Shown one piece after another: positions 10,829 through 17,504 of a DNA stretch of 64,000 nucleotides (position 1 is the stretch's first letter; each line of letters opens with the position of its first letter). The translations under genes and the position numbers were made by a program. Below the pieces are notes generated by a model. It did not search any database and had not been told where the DNA came from. It was given only the letters and a program-made list of their open reading frames with translations. This DNA comes from Salinibacterium sp. PAMC 21357. Lineage in GTDB: Bacteria; Actinomycetota; Actinomycetes; Actinomycetales; Microbacteriaceae. The stretch lies in the NCBI RefSeq assembly GCF_000247645.1, contig NZ_AHWA01000004.1, forward strand, positions 310,001 to 374,000. Reading direction: 5' to 3'.

Positions 10829-10916
10829 CGGGGATTACTTTCCACCTTGCCGTTGCCCTCTCAATTGGGGTGGATGGTCGCTGTCGCGCGGAGCTTGTGG
10901 CCACTAGGATTTGAGA

Positions 10917-11939
10917 GTGAATCACGTTACTGCCCGGATCGCTTCCACCGGCACCTATCTCCCTGAGCGGATCCGCACTACCGCGGAGACTGAAAAACAA
11001 CTGCGAAGCCAGAATCCCACGGTGAAGCTCGCGACCGGGCTCATCCACCGCCTCACCGGCGTTGAGAGCGTTCATCTGCGGCCTGATGGCTGGCAGACTT
11101 CTGACTTGGCGGTCGCTGCTGCCCGCACGGCGCTCGAACATTCACCCGGCCCCATTGATCTCATCATTTTTTCGAGCGCGAGCCAGGATCTCATCGAGCC
11201 GGCCACTAGCCACATCGTGGCTGCGAAACTTGAGATTGATTGCCCAGTAATGGATGTCAAGAACGCTTGCAACAGCGTGCTGAATGGCATGCAGGTGGGT
11301 GCGGCACTGATCGCAACCGGCCAGTACCGGCGCGTTCTCATTGCGAGCGGTGAGACGCCCTCGCTTGGGGTGCGCTGGGATCTCGACAGTCATCAACAAT
11401 TCATCCGCTCGTTTCCGGGTTACACGATGAGCGATGGTGGCGCTGCGGTGATCCTGGAGGCTGTCGAACTCGATCCGGCCGATGACGCCCCTGCAGGCAT
11501 CCTCGATTCGTTGTTCGTCGCCGCGTCGAAGAATTGGTCGGTGGGAACGCTCTCGATCGGGGGCTCGATGAACCCGCGAAATGCCGAGCTCAGCTATTTC
11601 GATATCGATGGCGCTGCCCTTCAACAAGCGTTTCTCGATCTGGGTCCGCAACCGGTGCACGACATCCTCGATCGCAACGGACTCACGTGGGATGACATTG
11701 ACCTAGTCGCCATTCACCAGGTGGCGTTGCCCTACCTTCCCGCCGTATTTGAACGGCTCGGCGTTGTCGAAGATAAAACGGTGATCACCGTCGCCGATCA
11801 CGGCAATCTCGCCTCGGTAACCCTGCCCCTACAACTAGAGGTCGCGCGCGCGACCGGCCAAGTGAAACCTGGGAGTCTTGTGCTCATGATCGGCCTAGCT
11901 GGAGGCATCAGCCTCGGACTAATGTTGGTGCGACTGTGA
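10917..11939 (+). CDS. OleA-like 3-oxoacyl-ACP synthase III
   Basis: The product has 340 residues from GTG 10917, which has AGGA 7 bp upstream. It has a thiolase fold of the FabH/OleA type. The catalytic cysteine is C118 (VKNACNSVLNG), with H267 (AIHQVALPYL) and N297 (DHGNLAS). A glutamate at E94 (DLIEPATSHIV) aligns with the OleA glutamate that acts as base for head-to-head condensation of two acyl-CoAs; E. coli FabH lacks it as far as I recall. It is the first gene of a five-gene operon; the next start overlaps its stop (GTGA). The likely reaction is condensation of fatty acyl chains to a beta-keto acid. A simple KAS III priming role is the main alternative. Confidence 0.8.
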   Translation: MNHVTARIASTGTYLPERIRTTAETEKQLRSQNPTVKLATGLIHRLTGVESVHLRPDGWQTSDLAVAAARTALEHSPGPIDLIIFSSASQDLIEPATSHIVAAKLEIDCPVMDVKNACNSVLNGMQVGAALIATGQYRRVLIASGETPSLGVRWDLDSHQQFIRSFPGYTMSDGGAAVILEAVELDPADDAPAGILDSLFVAASKNWSVGTLSIGGSMNPRNAELSYFDIDGAALQQAFLDLGPQPVHDILDRNGLTWDDIDLVAIHQVALPYLPAVFERLGVVEDKTVITVADHGNLASVTLPLQLEVARATGQVKPGSLVLMIGLAGGISLGLMLVRL

Positions 11940-12718
11940 CCGCCCCTCGCTCTGCCCTTGCCGTGGTCGTACCGGTCTTCAACGAAGCCAAAACGATTGG
12001 GCCAACGCTCGTGGCGCTTCAGGCTCAGAGCGATACCGACTTCGATGTGGTGTTCGTGGACAATACGTCGACGGATGACTCAGCCGACGTCATCCGCGTC
12101 TTCGCCGCAACGCACAACCTCGACCGCTGGCGCGTTGTCGACGAGCCCGTTAAGGGAACGGGCGCGGCAGCAGATACCGGAATGCGCACCGCGATCGCGG
12201 GCGGCGCAACGATCCTCGGTCGCACCGATGCCGACTGCCTCCCCCGGAAAGATTGGACCGCTTCCCTTCGCCGCGCTTTGACGCCACAGAGCGAGGGTGG
12301 TCTCGGCCTCGAGCTGGTCGGCGGCGAACTTGTGCCTCGACACGACGAGGGGTTGTCACTGGCAAAACGGGTGCTGCTGCGCGGCGCCGTTGAATTAGCT
12401 GAAGCCTTTGGCCGTGTTCGCCCCAGTAACCACAACGACGACTATTTGGGGCCGTACATGATGGCCGCTGGCTGTAATGTCGGAATTTCTGCCAAGACCT
12501 ACGAAGCTGCTGGCGGGTTTCCGCGTACCGCAATTGAAGACCTGCACGAAGACCGCGCGCTCGTCAACGCGGTTCGTCGCATCACGGCCTCGTATGCCCG
12601 GCGGCGTGACGTTGTCGTGTTCGGCTCGTCTCGCCGAGTGCAGGCGTGGGGTCTCAAAAACACGTTGCTCTGGTACAAAGATCATGCTTACCGCCCCGAC
12701 CACGTGGACATCCGATGA
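11936..12718 (+). CDS. family 2 glycosyltransferase
   Basis: The protein has 260 residues with a GT-A fold. The start of the nucleotide-binding domain is VVVPVFNEAKTIGPTL, and the metal-binding DxD is D98-A-D100 in LGRTDADCLPRKDW. A later EDLHEDRALV segment matches the usual acidic catalytic region (ED motif). No membrane helix is obvious, so it acts in the cytoplasm or at the membrane face. Its start overlaps the stop of the OleA-like gene, and its stop overlaps the P450 start. It may transfer a sugar to the product of the operon, or act as a polyisoprenol-type transferase. The acceptor cannot be told from sequence. Confidence 0.85.
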   Translation: MTAPRSALAVVVPVFNEAKTIGPTLVALQAQSDTDFDVVFVDNTSTDDSADVIRVFAATHNLDRWRVVDEPVKGTGAAADTGMRTAIAGGATILGRTDADCLPRKDWTASLRRALTPQSEGGLGLELVGGELVPRHDEGLSLAKRVLLRGAVELAEAFGRVRPSNHNDDYLGPYMMAAGCNVGISAKTYEAAGGFPRTAIEDLHEDRALVNAVRRITASYARRRDVVVFGSSRRVQAWGLKNTLLWYKDHAYRPDHVDIR

Positions 12719-13926
12719 CGACCCACACTGCCGCTACCGCGTCACACCCGCTCGCCGCGAAGTGGGAAGAGCGCGTCATGCGCGCGGCCCATCCCGTAAC
12801 ATATCGCCTGCTTCGCTCGGTGCGAGCCCCAGTGCGTCGCCTGCCCGGTATCGGAGTTCTCGTTACTGACGCGACGCTACTGCGGTCGGTGCTCATGAAT
12901 ACGGCGACGTTTACGAAGACGGGCCCGGGAAGCTCCAGCGATCTGTGGACACCCATCCTCGGACCGTCCCTGCTGCTCAATATGGAGGGAGAAGCTCATC
13001 TCACGCTTCGTCGCAAACTTGCGCCGATCTTCGCCCCCTCCTACGTCGATTCGCTCGTCGCAGCGTCCCTTGATACGTCCGCCGCAGAACTCACCGCACG
13101 CCTCCGGTCTGGTGACGCAGTAGACATGGTGACCATCGCGCGATCGTGTGCCAGCACAATGATTTCCCAACTTGTCGGGCTCCCCCCTCGTACCGAGTCG
13201 TCGACGCCAGTATCGGATGTCGAGACCGACATATTCGACCGGGTTTCGTCGATAACCGGTTTCGTTCGGCTCTCTCGCCCGAGTCTCACAGAGCCACAGA
13301 TTGCCTTCGCGCGCGGTGTTGTCGGCGAGTTGACAGCGAATGCGCGTGCTGCCTATGCCAGCGGAGACGAGTCGATGGTGCCCGGGCGGATGCGCGCTCT
13401 AGGGCTCTCAGAAGATGAAGCAATGGGTGCCGTTGCTGCGTTTGTGCTCACGGGCACCGAAACTTTGGTCTCGTACATTCCCCGCCTGGTGGCACTGCTT
13501 GCGGATTCTGGGTGGCTGGCTCGAATCGCTGCCGACCGCAGCCTCATGGAGCCGGCAATCGCCGAGGGCCTTCGGGTGACGACGCCGTCTCCCGTCATGG
13601 TCCGCAGCGCCGCCGCGGACTCCACCATTGGCAGTGTAAAAGTGCGAATGGGAGACCGCATCATTCTGGCCACATTTGCCGCCAATCGTGCCCTCGGGGC
13701 CTTTGATCCCGGGGCGAACCCCTCTGCTGCACTCAAACAGCTGTGGTTTGGTGCCGGCAGTCACTTCTGCCTTGGAGCTCCTCTTGCCATGGCGCAGATT
13801 CGGGTCGTCCTCGAGGCGGTGCTTGACGGAGTCGGCGAGAACGGAAGCCTCATCGTTCAATCACGAACACCGTCGCACCGCGTGCTCATCCCGTCATATT
13901 CCTCTCTCACCGTGAGCGCATCATGA
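12715..13926 (+). CDS. cytochrome P450
   Basis: The product has 403 residues from the ATG at 12715, which overlaps the preceding TGA; an upstream extension would overlap the glycosyltransferase gene by 70 bases and is unlikely. The heme loop is WFGAGSHFCLGAPLAMAQ with Cys352 as thiolate ligand. The ExxR pair is in AEGLRVTTPSP, and the I-helix oxygen-activation motif is AAFVLTGTETL, with Glu where Asp is common. It is a soluble bacterial class P450 needing ferredoxin and reductase, and neither gene is in this window. It probably hydroxylates or desaturates a lipid intermediate made by the same operon. Confidence 0.92.
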   Translation: MTTHTAATASHPLAAKWEERVMRAAHPVTYRLLRSVRAPVRRLPGIGVLVTDATLLRSVLMNTATFTKTGPGSSSDLWTPILGPSLLLNMEGEAHLTLRRKLAPIFAPSYVDSLVAASLDTSAAELTARLRSGDAVDMVTIARSCASTMISQLVGLPPRTESSTPVSDVETDIFDRVSSITGFVRLSRPSLTEPQIAFARGVVGELTANARAAYASGDESMVPGRMRALGLSEDEAMGAVAAFVLTGTETLVSYIPRLVALLADSGWLARIAADRSLMEPAIAEGLRVTTPSPVMVRSAAADSTIGSVKVRMGDRIILATFAANRALGAFDPGANPSAALKQLWFGAGSHFCLGAPLAMAQIRVVLEAVLDGVGENGSLIVQSRTPSHRVLIPSYSSLTVSAS

Positions 13927-15542
13927 CTGAAATGACGCCAGATTCCCCCGCCTCTCCGGACATTTTGGCGGCACTGCTCAGCGCCTGCGACCGCACGCCA
14001 GACGCACCCGCCATGACCCTCGGCCGCCGCACTCTCTCCTACCGTGACCTCCGTGATCGCATTCTCGGCGTCGCACGTTCCCTGACCGACGAGGGCTTCG
14101 TTCCCGGCGATCGCGTGCTGTTCTCGGTACGGCCTGGTCTCGATGGAATCTGTTTAGCGCTCGGAGTCATTGCCGCCGGCGGCACAATCGTGTTCGCCGA
14201 TCCTGGCGCTGGCGAAACAATGTTCCGAGCACGCGCAGGCCTCGCCGCCCCCAAGTGGGTTGCCGCCGAAGCGTTGCTCTATGCGGCATCCGCTGGACCG
14301 CTGTCACGTATTGCGCGGTCGCGGGGCCTTCAACTCCCCGACTACGCGTCGGTCGTACCCGATGCCCGGCACATTTTCGCTGGACCGTGGTTGCCCGGCG
14401 TTCCCCGCGGCGCTATCTCTACGCGACGGCTGCTTCGGACGAGAACAGAGGCAGCAAACGCATCGACGCCTGCGGACTCGCACTCGCACTCGCACTCGCA
14501 GCTTGCCGGGGACGCTGCCGCCGAAGCACTCGTCATTTTCACGAGTGGCACCACCGGCAACCCCAAAGCAGTCGTGCATTCACGTCGCTCCCTTGGCGCT
14601 GGCCTTGACGGATTTGCGCGCCGGGTCGGATTCATCGCCGGCGAACGCCTGCTCACCGACCAGCTCATGGTCGGCATCCCGGCGCTCATCTCGGGGGCGC
14701 ACTGGGAGTTGCCGCCCGCTGGCGCAGATCCCGGAGCAAAGCCGCGTGCCTACCTGCGCCTGTTGCCGCGAGCCGATGTGCTCTTCGCCGTGCCAGCAGC
14801 GCTCGATTCAATTCTCCGGATGTTGGAGACTCGCCCCGCGCAAACACCAAATTTGCGAGCACTCCTGGTGGGCGGTGCTCCGGTGCTTCGGCCTCTGCTC
14901 AACCGTGCTCGCGCTCAACTTCCGGGCACCTCTATTTCGGCGATTTACGGCATGACCGAAGTCTTGCCCGTGGCTATCGCGGATGCTGACGAGAAGCTGG
15001 CGTGGACTGAACCCGGCGATTTCGTGGGCGAACTGATGGGCTCGGTAACCGTGCGCATTGATGCGGGGGAACTCATCGTGTCTGGCCCCGGCATCGCGCT
15101 TGCCTACCTCGGACAACCACCGCTCACGGAACTGCGCACCGGCGATCTTGCGCGCGTTGAAGGCAACAGGCTCATTCTGAGCGGCCGCAGCAAAGACATG
15201 TTTATTCGGGGAACGACCAATGTCTACCCTGGCCTCTACGAGCCCGTTATCGCTAGTATCCCGGGGGTTGAACAAGCGGCGATGGTTGGCGTTCCCGACG
15301 AGGTTGGCGATGATGCGATTGTGCTCGCAATCGTGCCCGGCCCCGGTTTCGACGAAGAAGCGCTGCGGCGTGCGCTGCCCGGGCTCATCGATGCCGCGGT
15401 GCTGCCCGACCACATCCACGTGCTTGAGGCCCTCCCCACGAGCGGCCGAAACAGCAAGCTCAACCGTGCCGCGTTGACGAAAATTGTGGTGGACGCTCTG
15501 AAATCTCCCGAGACTTCTCGCCGCGCAACGACACCGTCATGA
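13923..15542 (+). CDS. OleC-like AMP-dependent ligase (possible beta-lactone synthetase)
   Basis: This is a 539-residue ANL-superfamily adenylate-forming enzyme. The phosphate loop is VIFTSGTTGNPKAVVHS (about 205-221). Core motifs are YGMTEVLPVA, RTGDLARVEG, SGRSKDMFIRG and a C-terminal lysine region LPTSGRNSKLNRAAL. OleC relatives adenylate beta-hydroxy acids and close a beta-lactone; other ANL members make acyl-CoA. The OleA-like and OleD-like neighbours favour the former. A His-Ser repeat (DSHSHSHSQL) before the P-loop comes from four tandem hexanucleotides. Start and stop overlap both neighbours by 4 bp. Ordinary fatty acyl-CoA ligase remains possible. Confidence 0.8.
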   Translation: MTEMTPDSPASPDILAALLSACDRTPDAPAMTLGRRTLSYRDLRDRILGVARSLTDEGFVPGDRVLFSVRPGLDGICLALGVIAAGGTIVFADPGAGETMFRARAGLAAPKWVAAEALLYAASAGPLSRIARSRGLQLPDYASVVPDARHIFAGPWLPGVPRGAISTRRLLRTRTEAANASTPADSHSHSHSQLAGDAAAEALVIFTSGTTGNPKAVVHSRRSLGAGLDGFARRVGFIAGERLLTDQLMVGIPALISGAHWELPPAGADPGAKPRAYLRLLPRADVLFAVPAALDSILRMLETRPAQTPNLRALLVGGAPVLRPLLNRARAQLPGTSISAIYGMTEVLPVAIADADEKLAWTEPGDFVGELMGSVTVRIDAGELIVSGPGIALAYLGQPPLTELRTGDLARVEGNRLILSGRSKDMFIRGTTNVYPGLYEPVIASIPGVEQAAMVGVPDEVGDDAIVLAIVPGPGFDEEALRRALPGLIDAAVLPDHIHVLEALPTSGRNSKLNRAALTKIVVDALKSPETSRRATTPS

Positions 15543-16474
15543 AAGTTGCCGTCACCGGAGCGAGCGGATTCGTCGGCGGCGCTATCGCCACCGCTCTCAC
15601 CGCCCGTGGGCACGACGTCCTCGGCTTTGGGCGAAGCACCAACGGGTGGAGCGGTCGCTACGAACGCTGGGATCTGACCTCCGGGGTGCGTGCACCCGAG
15701 GCGACCGCAAACCCTAACTGGCAGGCTGACGCCGTCATCCACTGCGCCGCCCTCGCGGACGATTGGGCCAGCCGCGAACAGGCATTTCGCGTCAACGTCA
15801 GCGGCACCCGCACCGTCGTGGAGAGCTTTCCGGATGCACGCATCATCCATATTTCTTCGTCGAGCGTGTACGACGCCTTCACCCCAACGGTGCACGCCAC
15901 CGAAGATGCGGCGCCCCCGACCACTTGGCTCAGCACTTATTCCGAGTCGAAGGCTGCAGCAGAGCTCGAGGTCGGGTCCGCTGCCGTCATCCTGCGCCCT
16001 CACGCGGTTTATGGGCCAGGCGACACCACCCTTCTTCCTCGCATCCTCGCCGGCTTTCGCGGGCGACGACTCATACTGCCCGCGGGCGCCGCGATGCTCC
16101 ACACGCTCACCCACATCGACAATCTCGTTGACGCAGCCGAACTGTCGCTCACCGGCTCGCCTGGCATTTACAACATTGGCGATGACGGCGACGTGTTGCT
16201 CTCAGAGATACTCACCGAACTGCTCGCTAAGCAGGGCCGGGCGGATGTCGCGCTCGCAAGCATCCCGTACTCCGTCGCGTGGGCTGCCGCCGCCACAATC
16301 GAGCGCCTGTACTCGGCGACCGGGCGAGGTCCTGGCTCCAGACGCGGACCACGGCTCACTCGCTATGCCGTGAGCCAACTCGGCCGCGAGCGCACCCTCG
16401 ATCTCAGCGCCGCACGCCGGGAGCTCGGTTATTCCCCCCGCGCGACCACACTCGAGGGTTGCGAAGACTGGTAA
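15539..16474 (+). CDS. OleD-like NAD(P)-dependent reductase (extended SDR)
   Basis: This is a 311-residue extended short-chain dehydrogenase. The Rossmann motif is VTGASGFVGGAIATAL (G7-x-x-G-x-x-G). The active-site pair Y134-x-x-x-K138 is in STYSESKAAAE, preceded by the serines of IIHISSSSVYD. The C-terminal substrate domain includes PHAVYGPGDTTLLPRIL. This combination is that of the 3-beta-hydroxysteroid dehydrogenase/OleD branch, where OleD reduces a 2-alkyl-3-keto acid to the 3-hydroxy acid. It is the last gene of the operon and overlaps the ligase stop (ATGA). At 311 residues it is slightly shorter than typical OleD. UDP-sugar epimerase is the main alternative. Confidence 0.82.
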   Translation: MKVAVTGASGFVGGAIATALTARGHDVLGFGRSTNGWSGRYERWDLTSGVRAPEATANPNWQADAVIHCAALADDWASREQAFRVNVSGTRTVVESFPDARIIHISSSSVYDAFTPTVHATEDAAPPTTWLSTYSESKAAAELEVGSAAVILRPHAVYGPGDTTLLPRILAGFRGRRLILPAGAAMLHTLTHIDNLVDAAELSLTGSPGIYNIGDDGDVLLSEILTELLAKQGRADVALASIPYSVAWAAAATIERLYSATGRGPGSRRGPRLTRYAVSQLGRERTLDLSAARRELGYSPRATTLEGCEDW

Positions 16475-16945: not shown

Positions 16946-17504
16946 ATGACACCGAATGCTGCAACTGAAAAACGTCAACCGAGCGCACCGTCGTGGAACA
17001 CCTACAAGAAGTCGATCGGCGACCGCTCCGGGCTATTCCAAGCGCTGGTAGCGACTTGGCCAGTGGCTTCGGCGCTCAATGTCGGCAGCTACCTTGATCT
17101 GTCGTCTTCGACAGGAATCCCTTCTGTCACCTACGTCGAAACTGATCGTCGGGCGGCTCGATAGTTCGTTCGACCTGCTCATTGCGCTCTACACCGGGCC
17201 AGCGTGGGATCACTGCGCGCGTTATCTTAAACCCGGCGGCCTGTTCCTCGCCAATAGCAGCCATGGGGATGCCAGCCTCGCAGCCCTGGACCCGCGCGTG
17301 ACGCTCGTCGGCGCGATCCACCAGCGGGCCGGGCGCTACCGGATCGACCGCGACGACCGCGCGAGCTATCTCATCCCGAAGAAACCGGAAACCGCCGACG
17401 CCGCCTTGATCCGCAGTTCTGATCGAGGCGTGGCATACACAAAGCCGGCGTTCGCGTACCTCTTTCAACTGAACGATTCTTCGCTGCAGCTGCAAGGCGC
17501 CTGA
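16946..17504 (+). pseudogene. decayed SAM-dependent methyltransferase-like gene
   Basis: Two frames make one broken gene. The first (16946-17164) starts MTPNAATEKRQPSAPSWNTY and includes VASALNVGSYLDLSSSTGIP and YVETDRRAAR, which look like the SAM-binding start. The second, read in another frame from about 17160 to 17504, continues with SSFDLLIALYTGPAWDHCAR and YLKPGGLFLANSSHGDAS, the second half of a Rossmann methyltransferase. The middle part expected between a TDRRAAR-type strand and the FDLLI strand, about 50 residues, is missing. So an internal deletion plus a frame change has removed the core. This differs from the single-base gaps seen elsewhere in this window. Confidence 0.65.

Follow-up and report, generated by a model that had tools for sequence, protein, structure and literature searches.

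The five genes at positions 10917 to 16474 of the window, by which we mean the whole 64,000-nucleotide stretch of a Salinibacterium sp. PAMC 21357 contig analysed here, form an intact operon that recurs in several actinobacterial families. Comparison of sequences indicates that the conserved pathway is real; chemistry of the OleA/OleD type gains comparative support, and a beta-lactone end product does not. On balance, we favour the view that the operon directs biosynthesis of a modified two-chain lipid, which would be built by an OleA/OleD-type route and then adenylated, oxidised and glycosylated.

Layout and spread of the operon

All five genes lie on the forward strand and are joined by four 4-bp overlaps at 11936, 12715, 13923 and 15539 (GTGA once, ATGA three times); the open reading frame coordinates and the sequence itself confirm this arrangement. 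The first gene (10917..11939) encodes a ketosynthase III (KS) of a separate, OleA-like clade, with a Cys-His-Asn triad and an OleA-type glutamate. Its GTG start at 10917 seems likelier than a possible TTG at 10911 because an AGGA lies about 7 bases upstream. It is followed by a GT2 glycosyltransferase with a GT-A-type fold (11936..12718) and a cytochrome P450 (12715..13926) whose I-helix ET, ExxR and heme-cysteine motifs are intact, then by an AMP-forming ligase of its own deep clade, with core motifs and C-terminal lysine conserved (13923..15542), and an extended SDR of the NAD epimerase/SDR type (15539..16474). Pfam and NCBIfam bear out the family assignment of all five genes. Between the operon and a response regulator gene, positions 16946-17504 hold what appears to be a methyltransferase-like frame remnant, interrupted by a frame change. 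The GC3 of the five operon genes is within the range of five neighbours; overall GC reaches 0.643 in the ligase and 0.661 in the SDR, against 0.623 in the top neighbour, a mixed signal with regard to gene transfer.

Searches of Microbacteriaceae and of named genomes bear out the gene set as an intact, conserved operon. A KS orthologue is present in 16 of 199 Microbacteriaceae genomes, the window's own included, at 58-73% identity besides its own; the other KS matches listed in the 199 genomes have at most 33% identity. In named genomes, 383 relatives were confirmed by a scan, and we examined the best 80. By profile searches, 55 of these best 80 of 383 loci have the order KS-GT2-P450-ligase-SDR, 54 of them exactly and one (L115) with an extra upstream GT2 match that is probably noise. 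Eight more stop after the ligase, six truly lacking the SDR (four Agrococcus, two Cellulosimicrobium) and two (L071, L091) at a contig end. A further 13 have neither GT2 nor ligase (ten SDR-KS-P450, one KS-P450-SDR and two KS-P450 cut upstream by contig ends), and the last four comprise three cut after GT2 and L103, whose matches are broken up. The hosts include Microbacteriaceae, Micrococcaceae, Promicromonosporaceae, Cellulomonadaceae and Pseudonocardiaceae, that is, at least five actinobacterial families. The grouping is not chance, because 55 of the best 80 of 383 loci, spread over several families, keep the order.

Other genes recur nearby. A second P450 family on the opposite strand (for example, L038:13302-14543) is found near the operon in 40 of the best 80 of 383 loci, including 36 of the 54 that match the five-gene order exactly; the other P450s of the window's genome are only 25-35% identical to it. 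Dihydroxy-acid dehydratase-like genes occur in 28 of these 80 loci and TPP-enzyme genes in 16 (for example, L113:2410-4269 and L106:18138-20015), mainly in Promicromonosporaceae, Cellulosimicrobium and Agrococcus, where they may mark an old site or a supply of branched acyl groups. An ABC-F ATPase gene (L036:4389-6209) is near the operon in 17 of the 80; those listed all belong to Microbacteriaceae or to related MAGs.

The ketosynthase and its partner enzymes

The residues C118, H267, N297 and E94 named in the preliminary description (C120, H269, N299 and E96 if counted from the TTG) are present in the KS and invariant in 16 of 16 aligned sequences, the window's included, as is the E-P pair formed by the OleA glutamate and the proline after it. 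The catalytic Cys, His and Asn are kept in all 34 operon KS rows of a wider alignment, in which Glu occupies the column of OleA E117 in every operon row (34 of 34) and every OleA row (28 of 28) but in 0 of 8 rows of the FabH type. According to Smith et al. 2020 (PMC7064751), this Glu is essential in Xanthomonas campestris OleA, the mechanism is unique to OleA homologues, and only two of the OleA proteins in that paper's alignment do not have proline directly after it.

Overall similarity is spread between the two families. Over 298 aligned residues, the window KS shares 28.5% identity with X. campestris OleA; its identity to a FabH is 32.7%, and it scores 152 bits with the FabH model and 151 bits with the OleA model (PRK09258, cut-off 285). 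Its predicted structure (pLDDT 87.5) has FabH as the top Foldseek match by E-value, with query TM-scores of up to 0.86 for OleA and 0.83 for FabH. Around the active cysteine it reads NAC, as in OleA; this motif is missing in two aligned PDB FabH chains. The KS tree of 70 rows was built from the 16 aligned KS and 18 of the 80 named loci, without three duplicate loci and without pieces shorter than 250 residues (the genome's own split oleA, and oleA genes truncated where a locus ends). In it, all 34 rows of operon KS group together (support 99/97), outside both the OleA clade (28 rows, 100/100) and the FabH-type clade (8 rows, 97/88); the tree does not place them with FabH, the competing assignment that the preliminary description had raised. 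A midpoint drawing puts the operon clade on the FabH side, with long branches meeting, as they do in both the KS and the ligase tree, which include those branches. By these sequence comparisons, the KS stands apart from OleA and FabH as a third clade.

Of the five proteins, GT2 is the best conserved, with 70-76% identity to 12 orthologues, and it has the motif D98-A99-D100; its predicted structure (mean pLDDT 65.6) resembles many GT2 folds, giving no donor or acceptor. The SDR carries the glycine motif and YxxxK, and its top NCBIfam match is OleD, at 142 bits against a cut-off of 580, in agreement with the earlier view of an OleD-like reductase. NCBIfam cut-offs were dropped as a test of OleC or OleD membership, since the genome's own canonical OleD (292 against 580) and OleBC (269 against 900) also fall short of them.

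The ligase matches a general long-chain acyl-CoA ligase model best (146 bits) and PRK09274 next (134 bits), and all 12 aligned operon ligases match both. The genome's own OleC has PRK09274 as its top model (323 bits), and a distant kinship of the ligase with OleC is therefore possible. The named OleC model gives the window ligase 69 bits against a cut-off of 900. In a quick tree with 10 of 24 OleC rows and four other ligases of the window's genome (its own match L141 left out), the operon ligases form their own clade of 23 rows, apart from OleC and the four others; the split uniting them with OleC against those four has an SH-aLRT of 90, below the starred 95, on long branches. The second-best model favours the label 'OleC-like'; the separate deep clade and the score with the named OleC model do not.

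Canonical ole genes and variant operons

That OleB is missing, as had been proposed, is true of the operon, in which the Pfam/NCBIfam scan finds no alpha/beta hydrolase among the five genes, but not of the genome. Another contig carries a canonical ole cluster consisting of OleD, a 955-aa OleBC fusion and OleA in two frames, the last at L050:6960-8107 on contig C5 and adjoining the intact OleBC fusion and OleD. Absence of OleB from the genome is ruled out by this fusion, which is also the genome's sole OleBC-like match at E <= 1e-60; no such gene lies near the operon. In all 10 other OleBC-bearing congeners, oleA is one open stretch of 352-418 codons from stop to stop; in the window's genome, the split could be either genuine or an artefact of assembly.

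Across the genus, the two gene sets occur largely in different genomes. Among 27 genomes, 12 have the operon KS, 11 have OleBC and 5 have neither; only the window's genome has both, and an overlap of one or none would arise by chance with p = 0.003, uncorrected for kinship. Genomes whose helicase is 95-99% identical to that of the window's genome (n = 10) include nine with OleBC and none with the KS, whereas those at 84-89% (n = 14) include 11 with the KS and one with OleBC. The window's genome has the OleBC of the 95-99% group plus the operon. In the family as a whole, OleBC is present in 3 of 16 operon genomes and 73 of 183 others, a difference that is not significant (p 0.11). At E <= 1e-60, oleBC was not found in 13 of the 16 operon-bearing family genomes (4 candidates per genome scored) or in 62 of the 72 genomes behind the named loci (some of them in the family set too; 18 candidates per genome scored in part). 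These counts are to be read with the threshold, at which a distant or unfused OleB weaker than 1e-60 would go unseen, and with the scoring of only 4 or 18 candidates per genome, because of which oleBC may be overlooked.

The operon looks as if it occupies what is an empty site elsewhere, because within the 1.5-kb flank the helicase is followed by a response regulator in 4 of 19 congener loci and by the KS in none of the 19. On the question of transfer, this evidence is better than base composition.

Loss of the SDR goes together with presence of the canonical genes. In all six genomes with SDR-less operons, oleBC is found next to an OleD, whereas of the 55 five-gene loci that have the SDR, 4 lie in genomes with oleBC (Fisher p 4e-6), a count that leaves out 8 of the best 80 of 383 loci, cut or broken up; the window's genome, which stands outside the 4 of 55, has both SDR and oleBC. 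It is as if the canonical OleD can stand in for the SDR, in which case the KS product would be an OleA-type keto acid. The pattern is a pointer and no proof, because the tree needs only two SDR losses and a pairwise test on it is unable to reach significance.

All 13 loci that have neither GT2 nor ligase group together in the tree (SH-aLRT 98), and the joint loss is a single event. Upstream, 11 of the 13 carry an adenylate-forming gene of TIGR02304 ('F390 synthetase-related'), and the remaining two are truncated at a contig end; two members score 334 and 348 bits against a cut-off of 252. The gene lies at L084:7411-8853, with equivalents in L074, L077, L080, L082, L083, L085, L086, L087, L090 and L097. 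No orthologue of the operon ligase or GT2 was found genome-wide in 12 genomes of this second architecture, where the best matches reach 109 and 67 bits, respectively, against at least 820 and at least 487 in positives. Judged by gene content, a second enzyme family seems to maintain the adenylation step, and the sugar step seems dispensable. As this other adenylate-forming gene occurs without a GT2, adenylation is not tied to the glycosyltransferase.

Proposed pathway, alternatives and known systems

A front end of the OleA/OleD type is likely. The KS would join two acyl-CoAs head to head, with the glutamate as base, giving a 2-alkyl-3-keto acid that the SDR would reduce to a 2-alkyl-3-hydroxy acid. 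The ligase would then adenylate the carboxyl group, leading either to closure of a beta-lactone or to an activated ester, while the P450 would oxidise one chain and GT2 would put a sugar on the resulting hydroxyl. As end product, we entertain a beta-lactone only tentatively, and a sugar-linked 3-hydroxy acid or ester slightly less readily still.

The end of the pathway may also run differently, as a glycolipid route without a lactone, in which the ligase would activate the 2-alkyl-3-hydroxy acid for transfer to a sugar or carrier, analogous to corynomycolate activation, and GT2 would make the sugar acceptor. The fit of the window ligase to a general acyl-CoA ligase model, with so few bits for the named OleC model, is consistent with such a route, as are the concerted loss of GT2 and ligase, both absent from the 12 alternative-architecture genomes, and the listing of functionalised hydroxy acids among the outcomes of OleA pathways in PMC7064751. 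However, PRK09274 links the ligase to the genome's own OleC, the joint loss counts as one event, and the alternative architecture has another adenylate-forming gene yet no GT2; we consider the route a minority possibility.

The front end may instead be FabH-like. The KS might elongate a special starter a single time with malonyl-ACP, and a medium-chain acid would then be processed by the SDR and ligase, with no head-to-head condensation; the equal model scores, the top Foldseek matches and the side of the midpoint drawing on which the clade falls all suit this. The invariant OleA glutamate, the NAC motif, the well-supported separate clade and the link between SDR loss and canonical ole genes argue against it, and we regard it as improbable. 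That the operon feeds an ordinary olefin pathway finished in trans by the genome's own OleBC and OleD is very improbable: both enzymes are present in this genome, but most other operon-bearing genomes yielded no oleBC at the threshold used, and a plain olefin needs neither a P450 nor a glycosyltransferase. The OleA/OleD-type route to a modified two-chain lipid is the reading we prefer.

A wider proposal, which we put forward as speculative, is that oxidised, glycosylated two-chain lipids are widespread and replace head-to-head hydrocarbons, a lineage having either the operon or oleABCD, with adenylation by the operon ligase or, in Herbiconiux and its kin, by an F390-synthetase-like enzyme of TIGR02304. 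If the proposed pathway is correct, many actinobacteria make an unseen sugar-bearing lipid or beta-lactone; some beta-lactones inhibit lipases or proteases, and hydroxy acids with two chains are similar to mycolic acids. The within-genus swap with oleABCD would make the role of bacterial head-to-head hydrocarbons testable, and Salinibacterium, Agrococcus, Cellulosimicrobium and Herbiconiux, which can be cultivated and variously have or lack each gene set, offer natural comparisons for lipidomics.

The gene set is not undescribed, as had been suggested, because Smith et al. 2020 (PMC7064751) published the same five domains in Actinoplanes atraurantiacus and, from the same inferred chemistry, predicted a glycosylated, hydroxylated beta-lactone; the chemistry of the preliminary description is this existing prediction, without a product. 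That paper, which also mentions the nocardiolactone and lipstatin producers, reports the Actinoplanes OleA as active on p-nitrophenyl hexanoate, but the protein that could be recovered did not condense any of the C8-C16 acyl-CoAs tried; we found no product of the gene set. Among the papers listed by searches of open-licence PMC, neither the gene set nor its TIGR02304 variant is described a second time, and a term search of PMC7158056 gave no occurrence. Within this scope, the breadth of the operon, the pattern of SDR loss, the exchange between operon and oleBC, and the TIGR02304 variant are possibly new.

By domain content, the Actinoplanes cluster as described in PMC7064751 resembles the window operon in its OleA-like KS, glycosyltransferase, OleC-like ligase (a loose label), P450 and OleD-like SDR, and in having no oleB in the cluster; its OleA is 29% identical to X. 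campestris OleA, compared with 28.5% for the window KS. The paper does not set out the order of the genes plainly, and A. atraurantiacus is not among the best 80 of 383 loci. The A. atraurantiacus genome is said there to lack oleB altogether, whereas the window's genome has OleBC. With the OleABCD olefin pathway of the Xanthomonas and Micrococcus type, the operon shares a KSIII with an E117-type Glu, an OleD-like SDR and an AMP-forming ligase; it differs in having no OleB, in the separate clades of its KS and ligase, and in the extra P450 and GT2. The nlt (nocardiolactone) and lst (lipstatin) clusters are OleB-less beta-lactone clusters with oleACD-like genes, and lipstatin uses the LstA/LstB pair; the window operon likewise has oleACD-like genes without oleB and differs by its single KS and the added P450 and GT2. 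Condensation and activation in corynomycolate and mycolate synthesis give 2-alkyl-3-hydroxy acids joined to sugars, and the window operon would give similar acids, but with no polyketide synthase among its five genes.
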